DNA from: Geitlerinema sp. PCC 7407
GTDB taxonomy: Bacteria; Cyanobacteriota; Cyanobacteriia; PCC-7407
Direction: 5' to 3'
Length of the DNA: 64,000 nt
Assembly (NCBI RefSeq): GCF_000317045.1
Contig: NC_019703.1
Coordinates: 3,976,934 to 4,040,933, forward strand
Notes under the pieces: model-generated
The model's input: the letters and a program-made list of their open reading frames with translations, nothing else
What the model was told of the DNA's origin: nothing
Databases searched by the model: none
In this document: positions 35,846-59,949 of the stretch, in pieces
Position numbering within the stretch: position 1 is the first letter of the stretch
Layout of the letters: each line of letters starts with the position of its first letter
Program-made: the position numbers and the translations under genes

Positions 35846-36433
35846 CTAGTAGCAAAACTTGTCGTCGCGAGGGCGGGCATTCTCTTTGCCGAGGCGCAGT
35901 GTGCCAATCAGGGTCGAAACGGTGACGCAGCGAAGTTTACCGCCTGTGGTCAGCGTGATCTGCCCGAGCTGGCCGTTGGTGTTGCCGTGGTAGTTGAACT
36001 GGACGCGCCATGGCCCCTCTAGAGTCCGGACTCCAGGGCTGTCGAGGGTCGTTTCGTAGGCATTGCGGCTGTTGGGGCCTTTGAAGACTTCGACATTGGG
36101 CGGCAGGTCGTTCCACTGGACACCGCTGGGAATAAAAACGCCCCGCTGCCGAGGATGAACGGCCCACTGCACCGTGGGTTTGCCGCTGGCTGTGACTTCG
36201 CGAATACTGACTTGCCAGGTACGCTTGTCGCGCTTGGCGTTGCTTTGGGCACTTTGCATCGCGCGATAGAGAGCTTCCTGGCTTGTAGCAAGACGCTGGC
36301 CATTGACAAATGCCAGCCATGCAGGAGCCGCGATCGCGCTCAGAATGCCAATCATGATCAAAACGACCAAAATTTCGAGCACGGTAAACCCGCCCGTTGA
36401 AGGCTTCAACGGACCCAAATGCCCCTGTTTCAT
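35846..36433 (-). CDS. Type IV pilin-like (FimT/GspH) pseudopilin, hps operon
   Basis: 195 residues. A 15-residue leader ends in GG before FTVLEILVVLIMIGIL, a standard prepilin peptidase site with Glu at mature position 5. One N-terminal helix is followed by a GspH/FimT-like globular domain with a C-terminal Cys pair. It is a close paralogue of the neighbouring gene at 36557: both share the run SAIAAP(A/S)WLAFVN. It is the last gene of the hpsA-B-C operon, and its position corresponds to the extra pseudopilin (HpsD region) of Nostoc hps loci. Confidence 0.85.
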   Translation of the reverse strand: MKQGHLGPLKPSTGGFTVLEILVVLIMIGILSAIAAPAWLAFVNGQRLATSQEALYRAMQSAQSNAKRDKRTWQVSIREVTASGKPTVQWAVHPRQRGVFIPSGVQWNDLPPNVEVFKGPNSRNAYETTLDSPGVRTLEGPWRVQFNYHGNTNGQLGQITLTTGGKLRCVTVSTLIGTLRLGKENARPRDDKFCY

Positions 36434-36556: not shown

Positions 36557-37252
36557 TCAGGGCGTACTACATATAGCTGGATCGTTGCTAGACTGCATTG
36601 AACCCAAAATCGTCCGAATGATGACACAGCGCTTAGTGCCATTCAGCGGTGTTGTGTAGTCTTGGCCATCCGGAACCGCCACAGCCAGCACAATACCGTT
36701 TGATCCAATATCAGCATCCCCAGCCAAAGCTCCAAATGGATCAAAGCTAACTGTTTTGACAGCACTGGGGGCATAGTCGAGGTCATCTACTGAGTTCGCA
36801 GCAGTATCAAGGTTTGTGTAAAACGTCACTTGCCCAGGGCGGATTTCTCGTGATGAACCAAGGTTTTTCCAAAGACTAGTGATATTTGTCGTCTGTGCTG
36901 GATACAGCGCTACTTGGGGACGCTTATTCGCAGTATCTACTCGGAAGCTGACGTTATAAATTCGCTTAGTTAGCTTGGCCCGTCTTTGTGCTTCTTGGAG
37001 ATTGCTAAACACCTCTTCATTAACAGAGGCCACTCGTTGACGGTTCACAAAAGCCAACCAGCTCGGAGCTGCGATCGCGCTCAGAATGCCAATCATAATC
37101 ACAACAACCAAAACTTCTAGCAGCGTGAAACCTGATTGCTGGCGCATTGGAGATTGAAGTCGATGACCAACGTCCAAAGATTTAGAGGCACAAGAGGTCG
37201 ATCTAGAGCTCCGAAAGCAATTGATAAACCGGATAAACTGCAAGCTGTCCAT
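36557..37252 (-). CDS. Type IV pilin-like (FimT/GspH) pseudopilin, hps operon
   Basis: About 231 residues from ATG 37252, which has GAGG 6 bp upstream. The leader is long (about 41 residues); a start at 37147 would give a six-residue leader (MRQQSG). The cleavage site is G/FTLLEVLVVVIMIGIL. The globular part has a Cys near the end (CVIIRTILG) and another in the last residues (AICSTP), as in its downstream paralogue. Role inferred from position: a minor pseudopilin in polysaccharide export by the HpsA system. Confidence 0.82.
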   Translation of the reverse strand: MDSLQFIRFINCFRSSRSTSCASKSLDVGHRLQSPMRQQSGFTLLEVLVVVIMIGILSAIAAPSWLAFVNRQRVASVNEEVFSNLQEAQRRAKLTKRIYNVSFRVDTANKRPQVALYPAQTTNITSLWKNLGSSREIRPGQVTFYTNLDTAANSVDDLDYAPSAVKTVSFDPFGALAGDADIGSNGIVLAVAVPDGQDYTTPLNGTKRCVIIRTILGSMQSSNDPAICSTP

Positions 37253-37291
37253 GATCGACCTCAATGAAACATTTATAAAAAGCAAAGTTTG

Positions 37292-38236
37292 CTACTGACC
37301 AATCAATCCACGTCCTTGAATTCGCATCTTCTCACGAGGGAAGAAAGCTGAATTGTTGGGGTTAAAAGAAGCATTGGCCTGCAAGCGCTGGAGTGCATTG
37401 CCACGCAGTTGAACATCCACCAGGGAGTTGTTGCTGTTTGCAACAACTGAGGCCTGGAAAGAATCCGCTTGCGTCTGCTCGATATAGTCTACAAGAACAG
37501 TCACATCAGGATACTGCGCGCCCGTTGCCAGTCCTGAGACCCAAGAGTTCATACTTGTTTGAAGCGTATCAGCCTCTCTGGGGTTGAATTTTGCGAATCC
37601 TGGACTGGCCAAAGCCCTTGCTGGTTCAGTCAGAGCTACACCGTTAAAATCCGTGGCCACATCATGTATTTCGAATCTGCCGACTCTAGCGGCCTTTGAC
37701 CAAGTACTAGGGGTCCCTGCTTTATCTGTGATTTTGTAATAGACCACCAAAGAGTAGACAAATGCATCATCGCAGCCTTCAACTGGTGGAGTAGCATCAC
37801 AGTCATCAGCATCTGTTGGAATCACGTCGTCAATCAGCTTACGCTTCCAAAAAGCTAAGACTGGCGTGCAGTTATGCTCGGTAGTATTGCAACCTGGCGC
37901 TGCTTTTACGGGGGGAATCTGATCAGCGATACCCGAAGTGGCTGGAGTAGTGCTGTGATTCGCTGTTAGAGCACTGCTGTCATAAACATAGAGCGCTTGC
38001 TGAAGATCCCGCGAAATATATTCGAGCGCTGCTTGAATTTCTTGTTCCGAAGCAGACTTAGCTTGCTCACGGCGATCGGTATTGAGAATGCTCAGCATAA
38101 AAGTCAGAAGCGAACCGATCACAATGCTGGCCAAGATCATCGCAACCAAGAGCTCTAGCAAAGTAAAGCCCTGCTGAGAATCACGCTTTGACTTTCCCCT
38201 AATTGCTTGACAAAAAATCCAAGAAATCAGTTTCAT
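37292..38236 (-). CDS. hpsC: Hormogonium polysaccharide pseudopilin HpsC
   Basis: 314 residues. Leader of 23 residues, then G/FTLLELLVAMILASIVIGSLL, and a large GspJ-like periplasmic domain with several Cys (CNTTEHNC, DCDATPPVEGC) and an Asp-rich loop (PTDADDCD). The order hpsA-hpsB-hpsC with two FimT-like genes matches the Nostoc punctiforme hps locus, where these pseudopilins are needed for hormogonium slime and gliding. The name is assigned by position and size. Confidence 0.82.
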   Translation of the reverse strand: MKLISWIFCQAIRGKSKRDSQQGFTLLELLVAMILASIVIGSLLTFMLSILNTDRREQAKSASEQEIQAALEYISRDLQQALYVYDSSALTANHSTTPATSGIADQIPPVKAAPGCNTTEHNCTPVLAFWKRKLIDDVIPTDADDCDATPPVEGCDDAFVYSLVVYYKITDKAGTPSTWSKAARVGRFEIHDVATDFNGVALTEPARALASPGFAKFNPREADTLQTSMNSWVSGLATGAQYPDVTVLVDYIEQTQADSFQASVVANSNNSLVDVQLRGNALQRLQANASFNPNNSAFFPREKMRIQGRGLIGQ

Positions 38237-38338: not shown

Positions 38339-39025
38339 CTAAGGTTGTGACGTACGCCGGAAAATGTCGTTGTAAGACGTTTCGCGAGTCGCAATTTCAG
38401 TCGTCATTTCCAACAGCGGTAGATCTCGACGACCTACTCCTGACGTGAAAGTTGCCTGCGTATCAGTTTTTTTGAGGGTCACACTGTCTTTAAAGGCGCT
38501 GGCTCGGTAGACGCGCACCCCCAGCTGATATCCCTTATCAGGATCGTTTGTGATCCGGTTGTAGCGGAATCCTTGGACAATCATGTCCATCAAACTAGTA
38601 GTTGTACAGAAACCATCGTCATCGGCGTCAAAGCAAAAAAGCTCTTTGCCGCCGCTGGCTGGAGCTGGGACTGTGCAGTAGTCATTGGCCGTGCAGGTCA
38701 AAGTCCCTGTCGCCGTCGGTGCTGCATAGTTTGAATCCTTCAGATGGGCAGGAGTAGTCAACGGAAAACTCGTGTCTGCCGTAGTCGCCACGATGCTACG
38801 AGGAGCGTCCACGTCACCAGAGCGAAGGCTATCTATATACGCTCGGGCGGCCTGAGTAGCGACCTCAGTGCGACGCGCCTGAAGACGCGTCGCCACCGAG
38901 AAAACAATCACTGGCGCGATCGCGCTCAGCAAAATAGCCACAACAACGATCGCGACAAGCGACTCAATAATCGTGAAGCCAGCTTGACTCTTAGAGGCAG
39001 GAGAACTAGTTGATTTTGCACTCAT
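38339..39025 (-). CDS. hpsB: Hormogonium polysaccharide pseudopilin HpsB
   Basis: 228 residues. Leader MSAKSTSSPASKSQAG, then FTIIESLVAIVVVAILLSAIAP. The long helix is followed by a small domain with two Cys-bounded loops (CTANDYC; CFDADDDGFC); the second is an Asp-rich DxDxDG loop that could bind calcium. It lies 65 bp after hpsA on the same strand. Type IV pilus-related secretion role known from Nostoc HpsB; the assignment rests on order and domain layout. Confidence 0.85.
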   Translation of the reverse strand: MSAKSTSSPASKSQAGFTIIESLVAIVVVAILLSAIAPVIVFSVATRLQARRTEVATQAARAYIDSLRSGDVDAPRSIVATTADTSFPLTTPAHLKDSNYAAPTATGTLTCTANDYCTVPAPASGGKELFCFDADDDGFCTTTSLMDMIVQGFRYNRITNDPDKGYQLGVRVYRASAFKDSVTLKKTDTQATFTSGVGRRDLPLLEMTTEIATRETSYNDIFRRTSQP

Positions 39026-39090: not shown

Positions 39091-42000
39091 CTAGGGGCAA
39101 CTGGTAGGTCGCTCGCTATCATTGACAGCGTTGCCTCCAGCTTCATTTTCCGCGCAGAGCAAAGTCGCAACCCACGGATCATCTCGTCCCACTTCTCGGT
39201 AGAACTCATTGGGTTGAGTATTGGGCTCGATCGTGAACTGGTTTGCAAAGACGTCAGGAGACTGCGTCAGCAGCGCAACATCAAAGCCCCAAGTTCTGGT
39301 AGGAGGCTCATAGTACGGCGCTGTCGAGAAGGCACCACCACCTCGGTATCTAAACCCTGTATAGCCATCTGATGCAGTCAAATTGGACAGGTACAGAGGC
39401 TGGTTCGATGTGAGCTGCGTAAAGAAGAGCGTAGATGGGGAGTTGCTGATGGTAGCCGGAGTGCTCACGCTCTGGAAGGGACCAGTTGCGTAGGCGCTAC
39501 GGCGATTTTGGATAAAGCTGCCGCTGATCTTCGCAGCGTTGGGCCATGCCTCTAGGAAGCGAACAAAGTTCAGCAGACCACCGTTGCTTTCGTTGGGATG
39601 GGATGGGCTATCTCCAGAAACAAAGGCAGCATTGAAGGTCGTCTCCGCAGCAGGTATGAGCCAGCGATCTTCCAGAAGTCCACCAAATGCATTCGCAGCC
39701 GTTGCATCAGGGTCACCCGTAGGGTTGAAAATCTGCAAGACAGGCTCAACAATCGGCTGTGCACCTTCAGGGATATAAATCGACGAGTTGCCGTTTAGGA
39801 AATTACTGTCGCTGTTAGCAGCAGAAGTAAATGCTCTCCCGTACAAGGTTGCTCCACCTTGAGAGGTACCAATTTTCAGGGCAGCTTTCGAGATGATGTT
39901 GCCGCGCATCACGCTATTTTCGCCCAGGGAAACCTGGCCACTGACCACCCAGTACACATTGTCCGCAGGAACTCCTACCAACTTAATAGATGCATTAGCT
40001 TGCAGCGCAAACTGAGCATCGACTTTGAAGACAAAAATTGATGAGGGATCCCCTTCCAAAGTCAATTCAACTGCAGGTGGGTTGTTACCATTCCCTCCAA
40101 TCTGAAGATTGCTGCTCGTGGAGTAAACCTTCACACCACCGCCAGGATGAACCAAAGTTCTAGTACCAGTAGTGAGGCTACTAATAGTGTCTGTCGATGG
40201 CAGGGCAGCAAAAGCATCGTAAAGTGCTTCAATTTGATCTTTAACTGCCTGAGGTACATTGGTTCCCAACGTTGTAATTGGGTCATCCAAGGCAGTCTCA
40301 TTAGTTGGGAAAGTAGCCTGGAATCGGTCATTCGCCGCAGCTAAGCCCCGCAGGCCCCCGAGGGATGGCAAGCCTTGATTGGCAGCCGCAAAACTGACGT
40401 AGAGCTTATTGTTGGTGTTCGCATCATAGGTGCGATTGCCATTCGCATCTCGAGTCACAAACCACAAGGAGTTTCGTCTTTTCGTTGTGGGATAGGGCTC
40501 TGGATATCCTTGCGCATCATAGTAATAGACACCAGAGTCCAGATCGCGCTTGAAGCGAACTCGACGCGCGAAGCGCTCATCACCCGGCAACGAAGGTTCA
40601 GCCGTGTCAACCGGGTCAGTACCATCAACGTAGCGAATCCAGTCGATAGGACCACACTCAGAGACAGGGATCTTGCGACAGATTTCAGTCTCGTAGGCTT
40701 GGACATCATGGCGGCGCTGAACCGGAGTCACGCCGTTCATGAAGTATGAGACCTTAGCATCATTTGTAGGCACAGTGTCAGTGCTCGAGTTCCCTGACCA
40801 CCATTGGTAAGTCGTTACAAAGTTGTTGGCATACAGGCCACTTTGCACTCGTCGACCGGCTGCACTGTTACCAGAGTTGTTGCGAAGGTCGTAGTCTCCT
40901 TGGACTCTGGAGCCGTCCAAGAAGTTGGCAGACAACAGCGTAATGGCATCAGTAATGATCGTTGCGGGCCGCCACTGATCTCCATCATCGCAGTCATTTG
41001 TTTGACCTGCCCGACAAGCAAAGTTGGGATCTAGATCATCTCGCGTGTAGAAATTCGACCAATTCGCTGCCAGAGCATCAGTTGCAGGATCAAATTCTTC
41101 TCGAACTGTGTTGCCACCTGGATCCTTGTGCAGGTTAAAGTCTCCCCTAACATAGACAGGCAGGTTGCTAGCCAAGATTAGGCCCTTTTCCGCAACTCGA
41201 TAGGTATCTTTACGAGCCAAATCGCTGCCATTGATCAAGCGAATTCCATTCGGTCGGCGACTAGGATCTAGCTTGAAATCGGTCGGGCTGGTGAGTGCTA
41301 CCTGGGAACTAATAGAGCTTACCGAAGGATTGTCCCCCGCTAGCGAGCTCACATCCGGTAGCGCATCTTCCCGAGTGGCATAGATGATGCCGCTGTTGGG
41401 CAAGAGAAACTCCTGAGCATCATCTGCTTCGCCCGCAGTTCCAACTTGAGACCCGATTGTCTTTCCGCGCAGAAGCTCTAGATCAAGCTCAGTGACTCGA
41501 ATTTCGAGCGGCTGGCGCTGCTCCAACGGCAGATCGTAAGTCGTGCGCAGTTCTGAGCGCTTCTCAGCGACGCGCAGCTTGTCACCAGATGTCTGGGTGT
41601 TGAGCGCTTTGACCTGACGACCATCCAAGAAAGCTTGTTCTCGGATCGCGCCATGGGGAATCACCGTGTTGCTTGCCGTCAGTGTGCCATCGGCGATCTG
41701 CAACTCGCACAGCGCAGCGTCGATCGCAGCTTTATCAGCTAGGGTGAAGGTCGCACTTGACTTGACAGCAAGGGAGGTGTCCAGCTTAGCAAGGGCTTCA
41801 TGCAGGGCCGGGTTTGCTAAGCGCCCGTCGGGGAACATCATTTGCGCCTGGGCAATGAGCTCTGTCTTATAGTCAGGCTTGCTCTGGAGATAGGTGAGGC
41901 GGTCAGTGGAGCTCGCATAGGGCGCAGCAAAAGAGACACCGTTGTTGGATCTGCCACTTGCGTTAGCGTTAAAGGCAGCCGCTGCCCCACCCGCACCATA

Positions 42001-44463
42001 AGGCCCGTTCAGCTTTGATGTCGCATCGGTGGGATCTAGATAGCTACTAACACAGGCGATCGGCTTTTGGTCTGCACCTGCGCTCGTTGTGTAGTGGTAA
42101 ACGACCGTCGCCCGCATCCGAAAATCTGGCAGCAAAGTGATCTGCGTACCAGTGGCATCTTTACCCCCTTTCATGGGCATCGAGTCTGGCCAAACAATGG
42201 TGTAAGCTGCGGCATCATTACCAGCCAGTTCCGGGGGATCAGGATTCGTCAGACCAGAAACTAGCTGAGGACGCGAGAGGAATGACGCACTACTCAAGCG
42301 GCTAATGCCAGAGCCGCTGCGATAGTACAAGCCCGCGCCCGTAATGACTCGCAGTCCGCCGTAGCCTTCGACGTCTGGGAGCTTGGCCGCAGCTTGCTCC
42401 CAAAAGCCATTGCGACCGGTATCACCAAGATCAGGGATATTTTCAATTTGGCTTTGGCGATAGCGCTGTTCGTCGGTATCAGGGGAGCCATTAGCCAGGT
42501 CCCAGTAGAGGGGGGTTGTCTGGGCAGTCTGCTCCTTAAAGACGGGCTGACGCTCTTTTTCGGCAGCAAAGGAGCTGAAGGTGCCAGTCGTCGTCAGCTT
42601 GGTCCAGATATAGGGGAGACCATTGCCAACAATGATGCGATCGCCTGTACGTGTCTCTCTGCCGTCTTCTCGCACTTGCTCTGGATCTAGAGCAGGCAAG
42701 AACAGCAAAGGATTGGTTGCATCAGTCTTGAGGGTCAGGCCCGTATTTGCAGAGTCTGGCGACATCCACTCTACCGGTGGCCGGACATCTCCCGTCGCCG
42801 GAAAGACAGTCGCTGCCGTTTTTCCTTCTAGGCCATCCGCACCAAAAGCAACGTCTGCATAGGGAACTTTGCGCGTTCTCTGACGAAAATATCGTTCGTA
42901 CTCTTCACGTAAGATATCTTCTGGTTTTTTTGGCGATTGGCGCTCGCTGTTTACCGCCAAGCTCTTGTCAAACGCTTCTTCTACCTCTTGTGGGACACGA
43001 GCAGCATTACTAGTAACACTAGCAGTTGTCGGCGCAGGCTCAGGGTTAGTGGTCGCGTTGTATGACGGATGGTTTGTTCGGTGGATTGCCAGCGCGGTAT
43101 CCAGCATCAAGCCAATGCGAGCCTCATAGGCCTGACTGTTAAACGCGACTGTCTGGCCACCCGCTGCCGTTGTGGTTTTATTGTCTGTGTTAATGACTTT
43201 GACGCCAGCACCAGGGGTTCGGTGGGCTGATTCGGTATCGCCCGCAGGCGCAACCCCAGCCCCTCGATAGAGATGAAGCACCGTCCGCGCTTGACTCGAG
43301 GTTTGAGCATCTGCCGCTGATTGGGCGCTGCCATTCGCGACATTGCCCGCGACAATGATTTCGCTATTTTCTTTCTGATAAAAGCAAGAGTTCGGGCTGC
43401 TGACCTGATAGAACAGGACCCTTGCGCTGTCACTTCGACCTGCTGCCAGCAAATTGCTGTTTGTGACAACTCGACCATTGAGGCGGAAGTTTGAGCCTGG
43501 GTCTGCGACTTCTAGGTCGTCTTCGAACCAAACAGCGTTGTTGCTCAGGGGAACTCTGACGCGATCTTGCTGATACTCTAGAGCCGAAAACCCGCTGCCG
43601 ACTGCTGCCGTTCTCTGTTCAAATTGATTAGCTGCCCAGTTGGAGTTAGTACCTGAGACGTCTAGATCAGCTAGGTTCGTGATCGGGACCGTTGCTGAGT
43701 AAACAAAGAAGCTTTTTTTCAAAGTGGCGTTGGACTTGTACCAGTCCGAGCCACCAATCAAGCTTGCGCTTGTACCTGAGCCTTGCGAACACTCCGGCGG
43801 CAAGGAGCCATCTTCCATGGGAGGCGTCCGGGCGTCTAGAGGCTTGCGCTCGCGCGTGAAGTTGTTGCTGGCATCGCGGCTGGGGGTCCGGAAGTACAGC
43901 CCATACAGCGTAAAGCTGTCGTATTTCCCGTTGTTGTCGGTATCAACAGGAAACTTCCAGGCTGTGTTTAATTTCTCGTTATTGAGCAGTGGATTGGCTT
44001 CGTCGTCGATCGTGCCGTCTTCATCGTTGTCATAGGACAACGTCAAGCGCGCTTCGTCGTCAAAGGTGTAGCCATTTTGCATGGCGCTGTAGAGCGCCAG
44101 TTCTGAAGGCGTCGAGCGAGGCAGGGTCGGATCGCGGAAGAGGGCGTCAATTTTGGCGCGGGCCCGATCGAGGGCGGGAGCAGCGGCGTTGAGGACGGTT
44201 TCGTTGACGCGGAAGTTGCGGGCGTTGCGGGAGCGATCGAAGGAGCGCAGCACCAGGGCAGTGGTCAGCAGCACCACCACCAAAGTCACCATGACCACCG
44301 TCGGCAGCACGAAGCCCGCTTCAGAGCTGCGGGCCTGGTTTGTGAGCATTTGCGATCGCAGAAGCCAGTGAAGCTGCTGCCTGAGAGATTTCTCGGAGGC
44401 GGCGATTTTTTCGAGCTGGCTCACGAAAGCTTGGACGATGTTTTGGAACTGGCGGCTAGACAT
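39091..44463 (-). CDS. hpsA: Hormogonium polysaccharide biosynthesis protein HpsA
   Basis: 1790 residues from ATG 44463 (MSSRQFQNIV); a TTG at 44634 would add an unlikely 57 residues. Residues 51-73 are a PilX-like N-terminal helix (AGFVLPTVVMVTLVVVLLTT), preceded by basic residues and followed by RNARNFRVNETVLNAAAPALDRA, the HpsA hallmark. The rest is a giant extracytoplasmic region. Asp-rich EF-hand-like loops occur near 144-154 (DNDEDGTIDDE) and 173-182 (DTDNNGKYDS). Residues about 1400-1560 resemble the DUF3494 ice-binding beta-solenoid (HPGGGVKVY; SSIFVFKVD; NVYWVVSGQVSLG; GNIIS; LYGRAF). HpsA is required for hormogonium polysaccharide and motility in Nostoc. First gene of the operon. 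Confidence 0.9.
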   Translation of the reverse strand: MSSRQFQNIVQAFVSQLEKIAASEKSLRQQLHWLLRSQMLTNQARSSEAGFVLPTVVMVTLVVVLLTTALVLRSFDRSRNARNFRVNETVLNAAAPALDRARAKIDALFRDPTLPRSTPSELALYSAMQNGYTFDDEARLTLSYDNDEDGTIDDEANPLLNNEKLNTAWKFPVDTDNNGKYDSFTLYGLYFRTPSRDASNNFTRERKPLDARTPPMEDGSLPPECSQGSGTSASLIGGSDWYKSNATLKKSFFVYSATVPITNLADLDVSGTNSNWAANQFEQRTAAVGSGFSALEYQQDRVRVPLSNNAVWFEDDLEVADPGSNFRLNGRVVTNSNLLAAGRSDSARVLFYQVSSPNSCFYQKENSEIIVAGNVANGSAQSAADAQTSSQARTVLHLYRGAGVAPAGDTESAHRTPGAGVKVINTDNKTTTAAGGQTVAFNSQAYEARIGLMLDTALAIHRTNHPSYNATTNPEPAPTTASVTSNAARVPQEVEEAFDKSLAVNSERQSPKKPEDILREEYERYFRQRTRKVPYADVAFGADGLEGKTAATVFPATGDVRPPVEWMSPDSANTGLTLKTDATNPLLFLPALDPEQVREDGRETRTGDRIIVGNGLPYIWTKLTTTGTFSSFAAEKERQPVFKEQTAQTTPLYWDLANGSPDTDEQRYRQSQIENIPDLGDTGRNGFWEQAAAKLPDVEGYGGLRVITGAGLYYRSGSGISRLSSASFLSRPQLVSGLTNPDPPELAGNDAAAYTIVWPDSMPMKGGKDATGTQITLLPDFRMRATVVYHYTTSAGADQKPIACVSSYLDPTDATSKLNGPYGAGGAAAAFNANASGRSNNGVSFAAPYASSTDRLTYLQSKPDYKTELIAQAQMMFPDGRLANPALHEALAKLDTSLAVKSSATFTLADKAAIDAALCELQIADGTLTASNTVIPHGAIREQAFLDGRQVKALNTQTSGDKLRVAEKRSELRTTYDLPLEQRQPLEIRVTELDLELLRGKTIGSQVGTAGEADDAQEFLLPNSGIIYATREDALPDVSSLAGDNPSVSSISSQVALTSPTDFKLDPSRRPNGIRLINGSDLARKDTYRVAEKGLILASNLPVYVRGDFNLHKDPGGNTVREEFDPATDALAANWSNFYTRDDLDPNFACRAGQTNDCDDGDQWRPATIITDAITLLSANFLDGSRVQGDYDLRNNSGNSAAGRRVQSGLYANNFVTTYQWWSGNSSTDTVPTNDAKVSYFMNGVTPVQRRHDVQAYETEICRKIPVSECGPIDWIRYVDGTDPVDTAEPSLPGDERFARRVRFKRDLDSGVYYYDAQGYPEPYPTTKRRNSLWFVTRDANGNRTYDANTNNKLYVSFAAANQGLPSLGGLRGLAAANDRFQATFPTNETALDDPITTLGTNVPQAVKDQIEALYDAFAALPSTDTISSLTTGTRTLVHPGGGVKVYSTSSNLQIGGNGNNPPAVELTLEGDPSSIFVFKVDAQFALQANASIKLVGVPADNVYWVVSGQVSLGENSVMRGNIISKAALKIGTSQGGATLYGRAFTSAANSDSNFLNGNSSIYIPEGAQPIVEPVLQIFNPTGDPDATAANAFGGLLEDRWLIPAAETTFNAAFVSGDSPSHPNESNGGLLNFVRFLEAWPNAAKISGSFIQNRRSAYATGPFQSVSTPATISNSPSTLFFTQLTSNQPLYLSNLTASDGYTGFRYRGGGAFSTAPYYEPPTRTWGFDVALLTQSPDVFANQFTIEPNTQPNEFYREVGRDDPWVATLLCAENEAGGNAVNDSERPTSCP

Positions 44464-45084
44464 GGCTGCTCTAGGGTGTCTGCGAAGGGACGGTAGACTG
44501 TTTGGCGGGCCGAAATACACGATATGAATGTTGCTGACAGTCACCACCGGAGGCTCACAGACCGATCCGGACGGAGCATATGAGAGCGCGAAAACTGGAT
44601 CAAACTCCAGCTGGTCGGGGCGCTGTCGAAGCAATTGTCCATTGCGATCTCAAGGGGCGATCGCGCAGTTCAAAGGTCTTTATCTAAAATTCAAAAAATA
44701 CAGATTGAAAGTTTCCATTGTCTTAGCAAGAATCGTGTAGAAAGTAACACCTGGAAGATACGAATATTGCCTCGTCCTTAATTATTCGGATACGCCCGTA
44801 AAGGCGGCGTTCCAAACACCGTAGGATTGCCCGGATAGGCGATCGCAGCTTCCAATTAAAGCGCCAAACTTCCGCTGTTTATTGCTTTTTGCCCTTAGTT
44901 GATTCAGGCACCTCAGCATAAATCGCTACATACGGAGGTGCTGTTTCACCTAAGAAGCAAACTTTAATAAACTTTGTGTGAAGTTAGCCGCAATTATCTT
45001 ACCCACCTGTTCTAACAAAACGATCAGGGACCCGTCAAAATCCCCCTAGAGGGTGAAGTTAAGCAAAAATTTGGCAAATTTTCA
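44464..45084. other. 620-bp hpsA upstream region
   Basis: No gene. It must contain the hpsA promoter. At 44908-44951 three short segments can pair in two mutually exclusive ways: GCACCTC (44908-44914) with GAGGTGC (44935-44941), or AGGTG (44936-44940) with CACCT (44947-44951). This resembles an attenuator but is short; no known riboswitch consensus is recognised. Confidence 0.4.
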
Positions 45085-45484: not shown

Positions 45485-48181
45485 CTAGGGGGCTGCGGGG
45501 GTGGGCTCGGCTTCCAGGGTGCGGCGGAGGCGGGGGCGCTGGAGGTTGAGGGTTTGCTGCTGGGCCTGGACGATGGCCCGGTCTAGGGCAGGCGCGACGG
45601 GGAGCGGGCGAAAGAGGCCCAGCTGGGTGACCAGGAGATTTTCGGGCAGGGAGCGGGGCAGGCGCGTGAGCAGCGGGCCGTTGGTGTTGCGGTAGGAGAA
45701 GACGCCGATCCAGTCGGGGTCGGCGGGCACCCAGCCGTGGAGCGATCGCAGCCAGTCCCGAAAATCGCGGCGATCGCTGAGGCTCTGGAGGAGGGGCCGG
45801 ATCTCGCGAGCGAGGGGCGGGTAGAGGTTGGCCTGTTGCAGCAGGTCCACGGCGCTGTTGGCGGGCTCGAGCCAGGCCTGGAGCAGGAGACTAGAGGCGC
45901 GATCGCCGCCCAGGGCTTGGGGCGACTTGAGCTGGGCGATCGCCGCGTCGGTTTGGCCTTGATCGATCTGGCGCAGCACGGTCAGCAGCGGATCTTGGGA
46001 GGAGTCAGCCGCAGATTTGAGCGCCGCTGGCAGCACTGGCGAGAGCCACCAGCGCAGGGCGGCTTGGTTGTGCTGGAGGGCGATCGCGCCGGGGGTTTGG
46101 GGCGACACCTGGGCGATCGCCTGGTCATAGAGCTTGATCGTCGCCTCCGCCACGCGGGGCAGCAGGGCACTCAGGGGCTCTCGCTGCCAGAGCTGATTGG
46201 TCAAGAAAGCAGGATTGATCAGGCCCTCCACCGCAAAGGCCTTGATGGCGTTCTCGGAATTGTTGAGGTACACGTAGGCCGTGCCCAGCATTCCGTAGAG
46301 GTAGGGCGATCGGGGAATCAGCTGGATCCCATGGCGCAGGTAGCGGGCCGCCGTCGCTGCGTCGGCCTCCAGCAGCAGCGCCCCCGCGTATTTGTTAAAG
46401 ACCGGATCGCTGGGCGCGATGCCCACCGCCTGCTCGAGGTGTAGCCGCGCCTCCGCCAGCTGGCGCGCCAGCGCTGGGTCTGCCTCGGCATTGGGCACAG
46501 CCGCCTGAGCCGGGTCATCGGTGTTGGCCAAGCGAGCAAGCTGCGTGCCCAGGTGAAACTCATAGGTTGGATCCCAGGGTGTCAAGCCCGTGGCCGCACT
46601 GCCGAGCTGCTCAAAGGTGGCCGTGTCCTCCTGCTGGAGAGCCAAGAAACTCAGTCGCCCCAGCCCCATGGCTCGGTCCACGGGCAGCCAGACGATCGCG
46701 GCTTCGACCAAGAGAATCAGGCCCAGAGCTCCCAGATAGCGACGCAGCAGGGGCACCCTCACCACCGGCGGCGGCTCCAGGGTGTGGGCCAGATTCACCA
46801 AAAGGGCGATCGCGGCGGTGAGGGTCAGGCTGATGCCAATGTTTTCGAGTTGAAAGTCGCTCAGGCTAAACAAACCGTAGATCAGCAGGCTCTTGGTGCA
46901 GGCCCAAAATATCAGGCGATCGCGTCCCTGAAAGCGTCCCGCCAAGCGCCACACCAGCCGCCCCAAAAGAACGCCCCCCAGGGCGATCGCCACGACCCCC
47001 ACCAGTCCCAGCTCCGCCAAGATCTGGATCGGCAAACTCTGGAACTGCTGCACCTGAATCAGGGTGGGGCCAGCCTCGATGGGGCGATAGAGATTAAACA
47101 GGCGAATGGTATTGCCCAGGCCCGCGCCAAACCACAGGTGATCGCGCCACAGGTCCCAGGCCGCATGGACCAGCAGGCCCCGCTGGAGCAGCTCCAGGCG
47201 CAGGGGGCTCTGGGATTGCAGCAGGGTCCAGATCTGGACGCGCGGGTGCAGCAGGACCGCCGCGATCGCCGCCAGCGAGGCCAGAATCCCGGCTAGCCAG
47301 GCCGAGCGGCTCAGGCCCAGGCTGCGATAGCGCTGGCCCAGGGCGATCGCTCCCCCGATCAGCAGCGCCAGCAGCACCAGACCCGCCGCCCAAGACCCCG
47401 TCGTACCGATCATGATCAAGATCAGCGCCGTGCCGCCCAGGCCCAGCCAGCGTCCCAGGCCCGTCTCTCCCAGGGCGATCGCCCCCACCCAGGGCAGCAC
47501 CAGCAGGCCATAGCCCGCCACAAACTCGGGATGCCCGAAGGGATAGGGGTTAGCAGCAACGGATAAATTCGCGAAATTCAGCCCCCACAGCGCCAAGCTG
47601 ACGATACTGGTCACGCCCCCCAGCGCTGCCACTCCCCGAAACAGCCACCAGCGCCGCTGGTCGCTCTCGGGCTCAGCCAAAGGCTCCAATGGCGGCGGCT
47701 CTGCTGCCTCGGGTCGCGGCTCCTCGACCGCCTCGACCGCCTCAGGGGCCTCCGGCGGAGGCGGCGGAGCGTCTGGCGTCAGGGGGCGATCGCCGCCCAG
47801 CCCATTCACCAGGGCGTAGAGCAGCACGCCGTAGCTGCCCGCCATCACCAGATACCAGGCCGGCGGCTCTGGCTGACTGGCAAACAGCGTCGAAAAAATC
47901 AGCGCCAGCAGCGTCAGCGCCACCCCCCAGTCGAGCTGGTGCCCCAGCAGGCGAAAGGGCTGCCTGAGCCGCCAAAGCCGCAGCGTCACGCCCAGGGCGA
48001 TCGCCCAAAAGCCCAGCTGCCACACCATCACCCAAGGCCAGCGCACCATCAGGCCGTAGCTGTTGGGCCAAAACGTAAAAGGCGCTAGCAGTAGTCCTCC
48101 TAGAATCCAGAAGAACCACTGCCAGCGCACTTGGGGCCAGCGCAGCCGAAACGAACGCAAAGTGGAAGTCAACGAGGGCAT
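45485..48181 (-). CDS. hpsL: O-antigen ligase-like membrane protein with TPR tail (HpsL type)
   Basis: About 898 residues from ATG 48181; a TTG four codons upstream is in frame. Ten to twelve membrane helices (1-510) include the Wzy_C/O-antigen ligase loop (LWFGAGLGNTIRLFNLYRP) and a Pro/Glu-rich insert near 130-165. The C-terminal 380 residues are helical repeats typical of TPRs (ARLHLEQAVGIAPSDPVFNKY; GTAYVYLNNSENAIKAF). Such proteins polymerise or ligate lipid-linked polysaccharide at the outer face of the plasma membrane. The sequence layout matches cyanobacterial HpsL annotated in hormogonium polysaccharide loci. The name is an assignment by architecture and location. Confidence 0.82.
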   Translation of the reverse strand: MPSLTSTLRSFRLRWPQVRWQWFFWILGGLLLAPFTFWPNSYGLMVRWPWVMVWQLGFWAIALGVTLRLWRLRQPFRLLGHQLDWGVALTLLALIFSTLFASQPEPPAWYLVMAGSYGVLLYALVNGLGGDRPLTPDAPPPPPEAPEAVEAVEEPRPEAAEPPPLEPLAEPESDQRRWWLFRGVAALGGVTSIVSLALWGLNFANLSVAANPYPFGHPEFVAGYGLLVLPWVGAIALGETGLGRWLGLGGTALILIMIGTTGSWAAGLVLLALLIGGAIALGQRYRSLGLSRSAWLAGILASLAAIAAVLLHPRVQIWTLLQSQSPLRLELLQRGLLVHAAWDLWRDHLWFGAGLGNTIRLFNLYRPIEAGPTLIQVQQFQSLPIQILAELGLVGVVAIALGGVLLGRLVWRLAGRFQGRDRLIFWACTKSLLIYGLFSLSDFQLENIGISLTLTAAIALLVNLAHTLEPPPVVRVPLLRRYLGALGLILLVEAAIVWLPVDRAMGLGRLSFLALQQEDTATFEQLGSAATGLTPWDPTYEFHLGTQLARLANTDDPAQAAVPNAEADPALARQLAEARLHLEQAVGIAPSDPVFNKYAGALLLEADAATAARYLRHGIQLIPRSPYLYGMLGTAYVYLNNSENAIKAFAVEGLINPAFLTNQLWQREPLSALLPRVAEATIKLYDQAIAQVSPQTPGAIALQHNQAALRWWLSPVLPAALKSAADSSQDPLLTVLRQIDQGQTDAAIAQLKSPQALGGDRASSLLLQAWLEPANSAVDLLQQANLYPPLAREIRPLLQSLSDRRDFRDWLRSLHGWVPADPDWIGVFSYRNTNGPLLTRLPRSLPENLLVTQLGLFRPLPVAPALDRAIVQAQQQTLNLQRPRLRRTLEAEPTPAAP

Positions 48182-48226
48182 GGGCGATCGCAAGACGCTA
48201 CGCCTACAGAGTACCCCCTCGCTCTC

Positions 48227-48273: not shown

Positions 48274-50265
48274 CTAGCGAGCTGCCCGCTCCGTTAGCCG
48301 CGTCAGCACCTGATTCGATCGCTCCACAAAGGTCTTCATGCCATCGGCATCAAAGCCCTTCTGGGACATCAGCGCCAAATCGTAAACGTGCTGACAAATC
48401 ATCTCCGCCAGCTCCGCCGATGGCGACGCGCCTTCCCCTTGGATGACGCTGCCCTGCTGGAGCGCCTCCAGGTGCTGAATCAGCGGGTGAGCCGTATTCA
48501 CCACCAGGGTGTGCTCCTCGGGGAACTCCACCGTCTGCTGCTGCAACAGCGCGTTCATCTCGCGCAGGCGGCGCAGCGCCTCGGGCAGCAGGACCATGGC
48601 CGGGGGCGTCTTCTGGGGATCGTCCGACTTCAGGGCTTCGGTGCGGATGGTCACCTTCGGGCGATTGAGGGCGTGCTGGAAGATGTCCTGAATCCGCTGC
48701 GATCGCGTTTTTTGGGTCGCCGGATCGACGATTTCAGAAGCCTGGTCGCGGTCCAGCAGATTTTCGTCTAGGTCCGCGTCCACCCGCGCGAAATTGACTT
48801 CGGAGTACTCCCGCTCCAGGAACGTCACAAAGTGGCTGTCAATGAAGGAATCCAGGTAGAGCACCTCAAGGCCCTGCTGCTTGTGCAGGTCAACGTAGGT
48901 CGCCTGGCTCACCGGATCGCTGCAATAGTACACGCGATTCTCGTGACGGTCCTTGGTGCGGGCCAGATACTCTTGCAGCGTCGTGTAGGACTGGCCGTCC
49001 AGGGTGTTGTTGGGCGTGCCGTCTTCGGCCACCGACTGCCACAGGTCATCCCCTTCGGACTGCACCTCCACCGCCGGCGCTTCGGTCTGGGACGCCAGAT
49101 CCGCCGTGGTCCGGTAGATCAAGATGTCCTCAACTTGTTTTTTGAACTTGTCGTCGTTGAGGGAGCCGAATTTGACGAAGGTGCCGATGTCCTTCCAGCA
49201 GCGAATGTAGTCCGTCCGGTTGTCGCGATACAGCTCCTTGAGGCGATCGCCCACCTTCTTGGCAATGAAGTCTGCGATGCGGCGCACCGTGCGATCGCCC
49301 TGGAGATAGCTCCGGGAAACATTCAGCGGGATGTCCGGGCTGTCGATCACCCCCCGCATCGGCAGCAAGAACTTGGGAATCACCTCTTCGCAGTTGTCGC
49401 TCACGAAGACCTGATTGCAGAACAGCTTGATATTGCCCCGCGTCACGTCCACATCGGGCTGCAGCTTGGGGAAATACAAAATGCCGTTGAGCAAGAAGGG
49501 GTAGTCCGTCTTCAGGTGCACCCACAGCAGGGGATCTTCCTGGAAGGGGTAGAGATAGCGGTAAAACTCCAGATAGTCCTCAGTGGTCAGATCGCGGGGA
49601 GACTGCCGCCACAGGGCCTTTTGGCGATTGATTTGCTCGCCGTCGAGCTTGATCGGCACCGGCATGAAGTCGCAGTAGCGCTTCACTAGCTGGCGCACCC
49701 GGCCCGCTTCGAGGTACTCCACCTCTTCGTCCATCAGGGTCAGGGTGACCGTGGTGCCGCGCTCCGTGCGCTCCGACTCGCTCAGCTCAAAGCGCGGCGA
49801 CCCGTCGCAGGTCCAGTGGACGGCCTGAGCGCCTTCTTTGTAGGAGAGGGTATCGATCTCGACCTGGCGAGCCACCATGAAGGCGGAATAGAAGCCCAAG
49901 CCAAAGTGGCCAATGATTTGGTCGTCAGCGGTTTTGCGATACTTTTCGACAAATTCCTCAGCGCTGGAGAAGGCAACCTGGTTGATGTATTGCTTGACCT
50001 CGTCGGCGGTCATGCCGATGCCATTGTCCGAGATGGCGAGGGTCTTTTGGTCTTTGTCGAGGGTGATGGTGATTTCGGGGTTCTCGGCGTCGCCCGAGAA
50101 CTCACCTGCGTGGGCCACCATCCGCAACTTTTGAATGGCGTCCACTGCGTTGGACACCAGTTCCCGGAAGAAGATTTCGTGCTCTGAGTAGAGGGACTTC
50201 TTGATAATCGGAAAAATATTTTCCGTATGAATCGTGATGTTGCCCTGCTCCAGGATTGTTGCCAT
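48274..50265 (-). CDS. htpG: Hsp90-family chaperone HtpG
   Basis: 663 residues. The GHKL ATP-binding domain has ELVSNAVDAIQKLR, DNGIGMTADEV and GHFGLGFYSAFMVA, followed by the middle domain (RGVIDSPDIPLNVSRSYLQ) and the C-terminal dimerisation domain. It is a general chaperone; in cyanobacteria it aids thermotolerance and phycobilisome assembly. It lies within the polysaccharide locus, with no evident functional link. ATG 50265 is the family start. Confidence 0.97.
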   Translation of the reverse strand: MATILEQGNITIHTENIFPIIKKSLYSEHEIFFRELVSNAVDAIQKLRMVAHAGEFSGDAENPEITITLDKDQKTLAISDNGIGMTADEVKQYINQVAFSSAEEFVEKYRKTADDQIIGHFGLGFYSAFMVARQVEIDTLSYKEGAQAVHWTCDGSPRFELSESERTERGTTVTLTLMDEEVEYLEAGRVRQLVKRYCDFMPVPIKLDGEQINRQKALWRQSPRDLTTEDYLEFYRYLYPFQEDPLLWVHLKTDYPFLLNGILYFPKLQPDVDVTRGNIKLFCNQVFVSDNCEEVIPKFLLPMRGVIDSPDIPLNVSRSYLQGDRTVRRIADFIAKKVGDRLKELYRDNRTDYIRCWKDIGTFVKFGSLNDDKFKKQVEDILIYRTTADLASQTEAPAVEVQSEGDDLWQSVAEDGTPNNTLDGQSYTTLQEYLARTKDRHENRVYYCSDPVSQATYVDLHKQQGLEVLYLDSFIDSHFVTFLEREYSEVNFARVDADLDENLLDRDQASEIVDPATQKTRSQRIQDIFQHALNRPKVTIRTEALKSDDPQKTPPAMVLLPEALRRLREMNALLQQQTVEFPEEHTLVVNTAHPLIQHLEALQQGSVIQGEGASPSAELAEMICQHVYDLALMSQKGFDADGMKTFVERSNQVLTRLTERAAR

Positions 50266-54965: not shown

Positions 54966-55961
54966 CTAGGAGAGCGAGGGCGGACGCCGAAACCAAAAAA
55001 ACAGCGGACTAATCAAGCTCGCCCAGTAAAGCTGCATTTCGCAGGCCGCCACTACATCGGTCTGGACCTGGCGGCGATGGCGCAGCAGGTGACGCAGGAT
55101 CTTGCGGCCATCATTGAGGGCGTAGAGCACAAGAGCCCCGGGGCGCTGCCAAGCCGGGAAACTCAGCATCCGCGTCCGGTAGCGGCTCAAGCCAATGCCA
55201 AAAAAGAGCTTTTTGAGATAGTCGGCCTCCAGGCGACTGCGGGGAATGCGGTGGTGCACGACCATGGCGGGGTTGTACCAGATTTGCCACTGGGCCCGCT
55301 GGAGGTGCAGCAACGCTTCTAGGTCTTCTCCGGCCAGCATGCTGCCGCCGACCCGGCCCGCCAGGACGAGGGTTTCCGGTACGTGGGCCTGCCAGGCTTC
55401 GCGCCGCACCACCAGCCCGGCACCAGGCGGCAGGACTTTGCGATCGGGCAGATAGGGCAGGGGGTCTTCGCCGCGATCGATGATGGCCAGGAACGGCTGA
55501 ATCCGCTCGAAGTTGGGGGGTGGGGGTACCTCAAAGTCACCCAGCACGCGGCTGCCAAAGGCGCCCAGCTGGGGGCGATCGCGCCCAAAGGCCACCGCCG
55601 CCGCCACCCAGCCCGGATCGGGGCAGTTATCGTCATCGAGGAACCCGACCCACTGTCCGCGAGCAGCCTGAATGGCGCGATCGCGGGCAAAGGCCAGTCC
55701 CTGGCGCGTCTCCTGGACGTAGATCAGCGGCACCTGATGCGGCCAGTTTTGCTGATAGCGCTGCACGATCGCCGGAGTGGCGTCTTGACTGTTGTTATCG
55801 ATGACGATTACTTCCCAGCGCAGACCCTCAACCCCCGTTTGCCCCCGCAGCGCGTCGAGGACGAACGGCAGGCGCGACTCACCGTTATAGGTACAAATCG
55901 CCACCGTCAGGTTGAACGAATTCGGCAACATCAGGGCGTCAGGCAGAGGCGGACAAGCCAT
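54966..55961 (-). CDS. hpsE: GT2 glycosyltransferase (HpsE type)
   Basis: About 331 residues from ATG 55961; ATG 55931 (MLPNSFN) and a longer start at 56030 are alternatives. It contains LTVAICTYNGESRLPFVL, VIDNNSQDAT, VGFLDDDNCPDPGWV (DxD site) and LAGEDLEALLHLQ, closely related to its downstream neighbour. It is the first gene of the GT2-GT2-GT4-pyruvyl transferase-PP-loop set. The HpsE name is given to this GT2 family in hormogonium loci, so the symbol is an assignment by similarity and place. Confidence 0.88.
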   Translation of the reverse strand: MACPPLPDALMLPNSFNLTVAICTYNGESRLPFVLDALRGQTGVEGLRWEVIVIDNNSQDATPAIVQRYQQNWPHQVPLIYVQETRQGLAFARDRAIQAARGQWVGFLDDDNCPDPGWVAAAVAFGRDRPQLGAFGSRVLGDFEVPPPPNFERIQPFLAIIDRGEDPLPYLPDRKVLPPGAGLVVRREAWQAHVPETLVLAGRVGGSMLAGEDLEALLHLQRAQWQIWYNPAMVVHHRIPRSRLEADYLKKLFFGIGLSRYRTRMLSFPAWQRPGALVLYALNDGRKILRHLLRHRRQVQTDVVAACEMQLYWASLISPLFFWFRRPPSLS

Positions 55962-56335
55962 GGTCAGCTCAGAAAAACAGCACCCAGCGAAGATCTCCCC
56001 TATGGTACCCAGCTCCTTCCGGAAATCCACGCGCTCAGGGGCGATCGCGCGATCGGCGTTCCCAGACCCAAAAAAATGGTTGATTGGTTGATTTGCAAGT
56101 GAGTTTTAATGCTTAGTCTGGGAACACTTATTCCAAAGGCCATCAGAGCCCAGCATTCCCTTCACCTGCAAGGCTCACGCGATCGCCTTTTTCGGATGGC
56201 TCGTAGGGCTTCCTACCCCTCCGAGATTCGGTTCTCTCTCCTCGTCCTGGGCCGCTTCCAAACCTAGGATGGAATTATCGCTCTTAGCACAGATCTTGCT
56301 TCCGCTGTGAAGTGATCTAAGGAGTTTAATGCTTC
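55962..56335. other. Spacer between hpsE and the CP12-like gene
   Basis: 374 bp. It contains a perfect 10-bp inverted repeat GTTCCCAGAC (56058-56067) / GTCTGGGAAC (56116-56125); within its loop, two copies of GGTTGATT (56078-56093). A promoter-like TAGGATGGAA element (56265) is listed separately. The hps promoter and the CP12 promoter diverge from here. Confidence 0.5.
56265..56291 (+). promoter_or_regulatory. TAGGAT element upstream of the CP12-like gene
   Basis: TAGGATGGAA then GCTCTTAGCACA after a 5-nt gap. A nearly identical string lies upstream of the MBOAT gene at 56871. TAGGAT resembles cyanobacterial -10 boxes; it is 71 bp before the CP12 start. No clear -35 is visible. Confidence 0.35.
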
Positions 56336-58590: not shown

Positions 58591-59949
58591 CTACACCGAT
58601 ACTGACGTATCCGGTGTCGGCTTCTCAGTGACCCCTGGCAACCCATCGGGCGTTTCCTGAGCTTTATTGACGGAATGCCCTACCGCCAAATACTTGATGT
58701 TGATCGCTACATTGTGGTCACGGTCAATCGTCAACCCACACTCAGGACAGGTATGGATTCTGTCCTGAAGTATTTTAGGCACCTTGACCCCGCAACCAGA
58801 GCAGTTCTGAGACGTACCGCTGGGATTCACCGCAATCGTTAGCAACCCGGCTCTTTCAGCCTTGATTGCCAGAATTTGCAGGAACTGGCCCCAACCAGCA
58901 TCATGAGTTGACTTCGCCAGCTTGCTTCTGGCAATGCCTCGAATGTTCAGCTTTTCATGGGCTATGTGCTTCCCCTTGGATAAAAGCTTGTTTGCGGTCT
59001 TGTAGTGAAAGTCCTTGCGCTGATTCAAGACTTTCAGGTGGGCCTTGGCAACGCGTTTAACCGCTTTTTTCCGGCGATTAGAGCCTTTTTTCTTGCGAGA
59101 CAGCGAACGCTGCAATCGCTTCAGGCGCTTTTCAGCTTTGCGGTAGTGCTGGGGGATCGGTTCTTCTTTCCCTGAGTCGTCCACCAAGAACGTCTTCAAT
59201 CCCAAGTCAATCGCGATGGTGTTCTCAAGACTGGGAACGTCAGGCGTGAGGGCAGGGACCGATGAGTCTTCCAGGCTCAGCGTCACGTACCAGCCATCGA
59301 CTTTTTGACTGACGGTCGCGGTCTTGATTTTGAAGCCTTCGGGCAAAGGACGATGCTGGATCAGTTTCACCCAGCCAATCTTGGGCAGGTTGATCTGCTT
59401 GCCCTGAATGCAGTCCTGTTTGATCTGCGGAAAGGTGAAGGAGCGGTAGCGCCCAGAGCTTTTGAAGCGAGGTCTACCGCTTCGCTTGCCGTTGCAGTCT
59501 CCTTTGAGCCAGCGGTCAAAGGTTTTCTTGACTCGGCCAATGCAGTCTTGCAGGACCTGGGAGTGAATCTGCTGATACTCCGGGAACAAGGCCTTGGAGT
59601 TTACCAAGTCTCGTTTTTGAGAGTAGAAGTCGGGATTCTCTCGCCGTTCTGGCAGATGACAGATAAGCGGACAGGCGTTGATGTCACAGCGATTTTGCTC
59701 GTACCAAGAGAACCGCTCACCGAGACGGTAGTTGTACTGTCTGCGTAGCAACTCTAGCCATTCGCTCATGAAGGCGATTTGACTGGAGGTTGGGCGCAGT
59801 CGGTACTGGTAGGCGGTTCTCACGTTTTCTAGCTGCTTGGGGAGGGGCGCGGTCTCGCTTCTCAAGCGATGCGTTGAGGAGCAAGACCCTTTGGTCTGAA
59901 GCGAAAGAGATGGTTCAGGGCGGAGCTGGTAGGTTCTCGCGTCAAACAT
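58591..59949 (-). CDS. tnpB: RNA-guided endonuclease TnpB (IS200/IS605 family), solo
   Basis: 452 residues as read from ATG 59949; GTG 59823 gives 410 residues and the usual TnpB N-terminus (RTAYQYRLRPT), so the first 42 residues are doubtful. The RuvC parts are intact: AIDLGLKTF (first Asp), AHEKLNIRG (Glu), and DRDHNVAINI (last Asp), with the zinc ribbon CSGCG...CPECG between. TnpB cuts DNA guided by an RNA from the element's right end. No tnpA or second IS gene is present. The C-terminal codons overlap a hairpin that should belong to the right end and guide RNA. Confidence 0.93.
   Translation of the reverse strand: MFDARTYQLRPEPSLSLQTKGSCSSTHRLRSETAPLPKQLENVRTAYQYRLRPTSSQIAFMSEWLELLRRQYNYRLGERFSWYEQNRCDINACPLICHLPERRENPDFYSQKRDLVNSKALFPEYQQIHSQVLQDCIGRVKKTFDRWLKGDCNGKRSGRPRFKSSGRYRSFTFPQIKQDCIQGKQINLPKIGWVKLIQHRPLPEGFKIKTATVSQKVDGWYVTLSLEDSSVPALTPDVPSLENTIAIDLGLKTFLVDDSGKEEPIPQHYRKAEKRLKRLQRSLSRKKKGSNRRKKAVKRVAKAHLKVLNQRKDFHYKTANKLLSKGKHIAHEKLNIRGIARSKLAKSTHDAGWGQFLQILAIKAERAGLLTIAVNPSGTSQNCSGCGVKVPKILQDRIHTCPECGLTIDRDHNVAINIKYLAVGHSVNKAQETPDGLPGVTEKPTPDTSVSV
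58593..58617 (-). ncRNA. Right-end hairpin of the tnpB unit (candidate omega/reRNA scaffold)
   Basis: On the plus strand ACACCG-ATAC (58593-58602), loop TGAC, then GTAT, one bulged C, CGGTGT (58607-58617): ten base pairs with a single bulge. It overlaps the last codons of tnpB, as expected for IS200/IS605 right ends, where the guide RNA spans the gene's 3' end and continues into flanking DNA. The exact end of the element is not determined. Confidence 0.6.

Follow-up and report, generated by a model that had tools for sequence, protein, structure and literature searches.

A predicted DUF3494-type beta-solenoid at an optional insertion site of the pilin-like protein HpsA in Geitlerinema sp. PCC 7407

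Introduction

The closest described counterpart of the protein studied here is ComZ of Thermus thermophilus (6QVI), a GspK-like pilin in which a beta-solenoid is inserted in the pilin sheet and whose closest fold is the ice-binding protein FfIBP. The ice-binding face of this solenoid is not conserved; the module binds DNA and was argued to be located at the pilus tip (PMC6561018). PilB of Streptococcus sanguinis, one of the modular pilins, likewise illustrates the concept of an adhesive module borne by a minor pilin; it differs from the present case in both module and organism (PMC8179133).

FfIBP belongs to the DUF3494 ice-binding proteins (PF11999; FfIBP 4NU2, 5UYT), which are secreted with a signal peptide. 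In 5UYT, the ice-binding face displays the row Ala41-Ala212-Ala193-Leu174-Ala147 (PMC5673226). A further Pfam family, pAdhesive_15 (PF20597), is described as a putative ice-binding-like domain that probably serves in adhesion. According to a paper from 2021, cyanobacterial genomes are devoid of ice-binding-protein-like proteins, except those of an Antarctic Nostoc and its close relatives (PMC7783341).

HpsA of cyanobacteria has its function listed as unknown (PMC4284469) and has been called a hypothetical membrane protein (PMC6495340). The hpsA-D pseudopilins have been proposed to act together with the type IV pilus in HPS export (PMC6495340). Here we report that HpsA of Geitlerinema sp. PCC 7407 carries a DUF3494-type domain at a defined site of the protein, and we compare it with these systems. 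The window refers to the whole 64-kb stretch of DNA that was analyzed, and all coordinates are given within it.

Results

hpsA lies in a polysaccharide locus encoding pseudopilins

The hpsA coding sequence (39091-44463, minus strand) encodes a protein of about 1790 amino acids from its ATG and matches the equivalog model NF038301 (EPS_HpsA) with 1578 bits for a cut-off of 400. The enclosing open reading frame extends from 39091 to 44634 on the same strand, and the ATG at 44463, corresponding to M58 of this frame, was taken as the likely start because an MS dipeptide is common to other HpsA at this place. Directly downstream, hpsA is adjoined by the pseudopilin genes hpsB (38339-39025, minus; NF038303, 269.9 bits) and hpsC (37292-38236, minus; NF038304, 289.1 bits), as identified by NCBIfam matches. 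They are followed by two genes encoding prepilin-like proteins, the first with a GspG/GspH-like N-terminus (36557-37285, minus; TIGR02532, 28.1 bits for a cut-off of 16.3) and the second with a GspH-like N-terminus (35846-36433, minus; 18.4 bits with the same model and cut-off). Upstream of hpsA and on the same strand are found htpG, a pyruvyl transferase-like gene, glycosyltransferase genes and hpsE, encoding the hormogonium-polysaccharide glycosyltransferase (54966-56030, minus; NF038302, 475 bits for a cut-off of 300). The locus resembles that of HpsA of the Nostoc punctiforme type (NF038301), with which the window protein shares its family, a prepilin-like N-terminus and the presence of HpsB and HpsC. 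The first-pass annotation had designated HpsA as a polysaccharide export protein; pilin-like protein, or hypothetical membrane protein encoded with pseudopilins, is a better designation than that of an established export protein.

Three other genes of the window deserve mention. htpG (HSP90; 48277-50265, minus) sits between hpsA and hpsE amid polysaccharide genes, and the hps cluster of Phormidium sp. KS likewise holds htpG (PMC4284469), so that this linkage may be old and functional. The gene directly upstream of hpsA (45485-48193, minus) encodes a 902-amino-acid protein that looks by eye like an O-antigen ligase with repeats, and matched neither Pfam at 1e-4 nor NCBIfam at 1e-10. A TnpB-family RNA-guided endonuclease (58591-59949, minus; NF040570, 299 bits) is encoded close to the polysaccharide genes.

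HpsA has a prepilin-like N-terminus

A prepilin-like motif, G/FVLPTVVMV (44287-44316, minus; the slash stands for the putative processing site), precedes a hydrophobic N-terminal helix (44149-44313), and the pattern GF[VIL]LP[TAV] was present in nearly all HpsA read. In the AlphaFold2 (AF2) model of a minimal HpsA of 1141 amino acids (pLDDT 80.8, pTM 0.80), a 57-residue helix starts just past the G/F motif. HpsA therefore appears, from motif and model, to combine a class III signal-like site with a long hydrophobic N-terminal helix, as in type IV pilins. Since the leader ahead of the G/F site is long, about 50 amino acids, and mature position 5 is a T and not an E, prepilin-type processing is regarded as putative only. 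Comparison of the minimal HpsA model with PDB folds gave no significant match, pilins included (ComZ came at E 3.4, which is noise), and the HpsA profile matched none of the PDB sequences. Between ComZ and HpsA no sequence similarity was detectable, and the fold similarity of the scaffold was at noise level only.

HpsA carries an N-terminally truncated DUF3494 domain near its C-terminus

The only Pfam domain found in HpsA is Ice_binding (PF11999, DUF3494), matched with an E-value of 8e-18 and 65.3 bits, for a gathering cut-off of 28.7, over profile positions 51 to 196 of 208. The domain was delineated at 39817-40293 (minus strand), combining the Pfam match (39823-40293) and the core of the AF2 model (39817-40251) with Foldseek, and corresponds to residues ~1403-1547 counted from M58. 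It is the sole PF11999 match in the PCC 7407 genome (4,681,111 bases, one contig). A phmmer comparison with PDB sequences recovered 22 of them, all being ice-binding or antifreeze proteins, with 5uyt as best match (2.2e-13). The first-pass annotation had recognized in residues ~1400-1560 of HpsA the motif order of DUF3494 proteins, and each motif was recovered where it had been placed: HPGGGVKVY runs into the first strand, VKVYSTS (40114-40134), and is followed by SSIFVFK, NVYWVV, SLG, GNI and LYGRAF (39823-39846). Ahead of them, the sequence VPQAVKDQIEALYDAFAAL (40201-40257, minus) is modelled as an alpha-helix (residues 56-70 of the modelled fragment), the one that in DUF3494 proteins lies packed against the solenoid.

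The AF2 model of the fragment 39715-40416 consists of one helix followed by regular short solenoid strands, with block pLDDT values mostly of 85-95 over fragment residues 61-180 and of 68-95 over residues 51-200. Foldseek with the domain model returned 29 PDB matches at E<=1e-3, every one a DUF3494 protein and the best being FfIBP (4NU2, 3.5e-7), and the next match beyond this set appeared only at E 0.58; the AF2 input alignment held six canonical DUF3494 sequences, which makes the fold match partly dependent on the sequence match. Profile search and structure prediction, the two approaches by which the annotation could have failed, hence agree on a discontinuous three-sided beta-solenoid with a parallel helix, predicted by AF2 and Foldseek, its handedness being taken from the match. 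The DUF3494 assignment is confirmed by profile and model, and is not due to chance. The domain shares with the ice-binding proteins the profile, the strand order, the side helix and the predicted three-sided solenoid. It differs from them in being an internal module of a 1790-residue pilin-like protein and in being incomplete, as the first ~50 profile positions, including the N-terminal coils, are missing. A similar truncation was seen in other HpsA, whose Pfam-matching inserts begin at PF11999 profile position 67 or later.

The ice-binding face is not conserved

Positions of the ice-binding face were placed from the description of 5UYT by sequence alignment and not from coordinates. In standalone relatives these positions are mostly T/T, S/T, S/T and A/T, versus Q/A, Q/S and A/K in the window domain, where the alignment of the fourth pair is poor (Y/P in the alignment, S/Y when placed manually); no conservation was observed there in other HpsA inserts. 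The window domain thus has neither the flat face with small residues nor the ladder of Thr/Ser in register that characterizes the ice-binding proteins. In addition, the segment missing from the HpsA match is the one which, in 5UYT, supplies one rung of the ice face, Ala41 (PMC5673226). With the N-terminal coils missing and the ice-face residues unconserved, binding of ice by the HpsA domain is unlikely, as judged from this mapping.

The domain is an optional insert at a fixed site of HpsA

In the window, the accessory insert (39760-40389, minus) is bordered by the conserved flanks LWF..NKLYVS (40390-40473) and QPIVEPVLQIF (39727-39759), and the conserved HpsA C-terminal block defined by the HpsA alignment (FNAAFVSGDSPSHPNESNGGLLNFVRFLEAW..., 39475-39636, minus) comes after it. 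Most HpsA have no insert, or only a very short one, at position ~1301 of the HpsA profile. When 31 HpsA were aligned, the domain coincided with a gap, most sequences passing from LWFRTT..PLFY to QPLLVPVLQ with few residues between, and the window HpsA mapped on the profile built from these proteins shows 166 extra residues at position 1301. The idea that the domain belongs to every HpsA was consequently rejected. Inserts at position 1301 were also found in other HpsA, with lengths of 209-292 amino acids in several families and of ~900-1200 in one family, whose inserts open with a proline/threonine-rich linker. The large inserts read as divergent versions of the same domain (..SIFVFQ..LVLDGVSPNNVFW..LAGNFLG..GRLLGF). 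A profile derived from the other HpsA inserts, with the window left out, matched the window insert in a one-protein search (domain E 1.9e-12) and ice-binding proteins of the PDB at 5e-4. One divergent insert passes the Pfam PF11999 cut-off alone (52.5 bits), and one related insert matches pAdhesive_15 (PF20597) at 1e-4, a family that the window domain did not match in the Pfam search.

Searching 390 genomes of the class with the insert profile gave 39 positive genomes. The HpsA C-terminal block was present in the same frame at 29 of the 30 insert loci read, the remaining locus ending at a contig end. A search of 386 genomes with PF11999 alone had suggested a domain unique to the HpsA of this genome, a view that was rejected since the alignment-derived profile finds divergent inserts that Pfam misses. 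Among named HpsA loci, 8 of 79 carry the insert: Gloeocapsopsis crepidinum LEGE 06123, Chlorogloea sp. CCALA 695, a Gloeocapsa, a Chroococcus, Trichocoleus sp. FACHB-40, Spirulina sp. CCY15215 and two other cyanobacteria. By contrast with the window HpsA, no DUF3494-type insert was detected in Nostocales HpsA (0 among ~60 loci examined). The comparison of HpsA proteins proposed with the first-pass annotation thus yielded divergent versions of the domain at the same site elsewhere, in a minority of lineages, so that it is not a general feature of HpsA. Because HpsA of the group of Nostoc punctiforme, the Nostocales, is without the domain, the latter seems dispensable for the secretion of hormogonium polysaccharide in itself; N. 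punctiforme HpsA, on which experiments have been done, was counted here as domain-less through its group and not by its own sequence.

Further observations were made on the same region. The four insert-bearing HpsA of Gloeocapsopsis, Chlorogloea, Gloeocapsa and Chroococcus (L186, L188, L189, L230) come from genera usually described as unicellular or colonial, and HpsA is therefore not limited to hormogonium formers. HpsA of family f26 (L102, L114, L115 and others) reach 2800-3200 amino acids and contain, in this order, a long extra region, a Pro/Thr-rich linker and the divergent DUF3494-like domain. HpsA of family f25 (L116, L117, L118) harbor different large inserts at residues ~1600-2300, in the same accessory region, the one of L118 having Cys/Trp-rich stretches that resemble thrombospondin type 1 repeats. 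The rows of family f25 and of genome L122, which have different inserts, were not counted as carriers. The accessory site of HpsA seems to be a general cargo position. Naturally short HpsA of ~1140-1240 amino acids (L098, L099, L101) are without the whole accessory region, and would be a useful minimal form for structural work; the one modelled above is still predicted to fold well in spite of this. Stand-alone canonical DUF3494 proteins occur in other classes of the same phylum (L032-L046; G013, G018, G032, G035, G230), with up to seven matches in genome G035.

Inserts in relatives are under purifying selection

On an HpsA tree built without the insert columns, 6 changes are required to explain the distribution of the insert, which is present in the branch of true HpsA that splits off first (family f26). 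Its history may be one of ancient presence followed by several losses, or one of several gains. In a tree of the domains, all HpsA inserts, including that of the window, fall on one side and six standalone domains on the other (100/99), the window row being the least diverged and the outgroup, these six domains, being small. The dN/dS ratios of the insert in three pairs of relatives were 0.27, 0.12 and 0.08, synonymous sites being near saturation in the last two pairs. HpsA inserts in relatives are under purifying selection.

The GC content of the insert is 0.475 versus 0.547 in the rest of hpsA, which ranks it with the AT-richest segments of the gene. This value gives a weak hint of a separate acquisition. 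Because GC declines gradually around the insert and ~4% of the 64 kb are equally low, a recent foreign insert was kept only as a minor alternative.

Discussion

Like ComZ, HpsA of Geitlerinema sp. PCC 7407 is a pilin-like protein with an inserted FfIBP-like solenoid whose ice face is not conserved. ComZ is encoded beside another minor pilin and is proposed at the pilus tip; HpsA is likewise encoded with pseudopilins, and for its domain we infer tip position, surface exposure and ligand by analogy. The two differ in that the ComZ solenoid comprises ~380 residues and binds DNA, whereas HpsA belongs to a polysaccharide system.

Our working model, to which we attach about even confidence, is that HpsA forms a pilin-like component at the tip of the Hps pseudopilus and that the domain acts as an adhesive head, variable between lineages, which is directed at polysaccharide or a surface. 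This giant protein would most likely stand at the tip of the pseudopilus that would drive polysaccharide secretion and gliding. The C-terminal-proximal site between conserved flanks would accept an optional module, here the DUF3494-type solenoid. The latter would keep its fold without the ice face and act as a rigid adhesive head, touching either polysaccharide, secreted or from the sheath of a neighbour, or a solid surface. Such a ligand contact is modelled on that of the ComZ solenoid with DNA. A glycan or surface rather than ice as ligand would fit with the missing N-terminal coils, the unconserved ice face and the ComZ precedent. We are more tentative about a bolder version, doubtful in our opinion, in which the pseudopilus would handle polysaccharide, HpsA would form its tip and the solenoid would be an old, lineage-lost receptor head gripping the extruded polysaccharide or the substrate.

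The solenoid could instead be a structural spacer or a docking surface within an Hps tip complex, in contact with HpsB, HpsC or the other prepilins, and have no external ligand. The location of the module between conserved HpsA blocks, and not at a free end, is consistent with this proposal, as are the open edge left by the missing coils, which a partner could fill, and the dispensable nature and variability of the module between lineages, which spacers can display. On the other hand, a docking surface that is needed should not be missing in most HpsA with the same pseudopilin neighbours, and the inserts evolve under purifying selection; we consider this explanation possible, while putting its probability well below even.

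A true ice-binding domain, protecting the filament or anchoring it to ice, would account for the PF11999 match and the fold. We find it very improbable: the match starts only at profile position 51 of 208, leaving out the N-terminal coils, Gln and Lys replace small and Thr residues on the unconserved ice face, and the carriers, judged by their names, are not a cold-habitat set, the habitat of PCC 7407 itself being recorded as 'unknown' (PMC4971617). It is slightly less probable still that the domain binds DNA like ComZ, HpsA then helping to capture DNA or to retain extracellular DNA within slime. The same type of fold is inserted in a pilin-like protein in both cases, and a Lys is found on the altered face in the window and in some related inserts, but no competence genes were seen adjoining hpsA, whose neighbours are polysaccharide genes, and HpsA has no detectable sequence relation to ComZ. 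Just as improbable is an insert devoid of function, either a remnant in decay or a recent horizontal acquisition, which the low GC and the patchy distribution on the HpsA tree might suggest, in view of the intact open frame, the confident predicted fold, the low dN/dS in relatives, the gradual GC fall and the equally low values elsewhere in the window.

The PF11999 annotation itself is not new, as Pfam would already label this HpsA. We found no description of a DUF3494 domain in HpsA in the openly searchable literature. New here are the fixed site of insertion, a divergent family that is confined to HpsA, the loss of the ice face and the parallel with ComZ. The inserts are overlooked by the 2021 statement on cyanobacterial genomes (PMC7783341). 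Together with ComZ, they also suggest that many of the DUF3494 annotations made outside cold habitats do not signify ice.

HpsA joins ComZ as the second pilin-like protein seen to have a solenoid of the ice-binding-protein type inserted in it, and the fact that both carry such solenoids suggests that the ice-binding-type solenoid is a general pilus-borne adhesive module. A recognizable ligand-binding fold at a defined and removable site offers a direct handle on HpsA, since the domain can be expressed, its ligand searched for and the module deleted. The question bears on the coupling between the type IV pilus and the secreted polysaccharide during the gliding of cyanobacteria. If the bolder version of our proposal is true, an antifreeze fold would serve some of the cyanobacteria as their foot in gliding.
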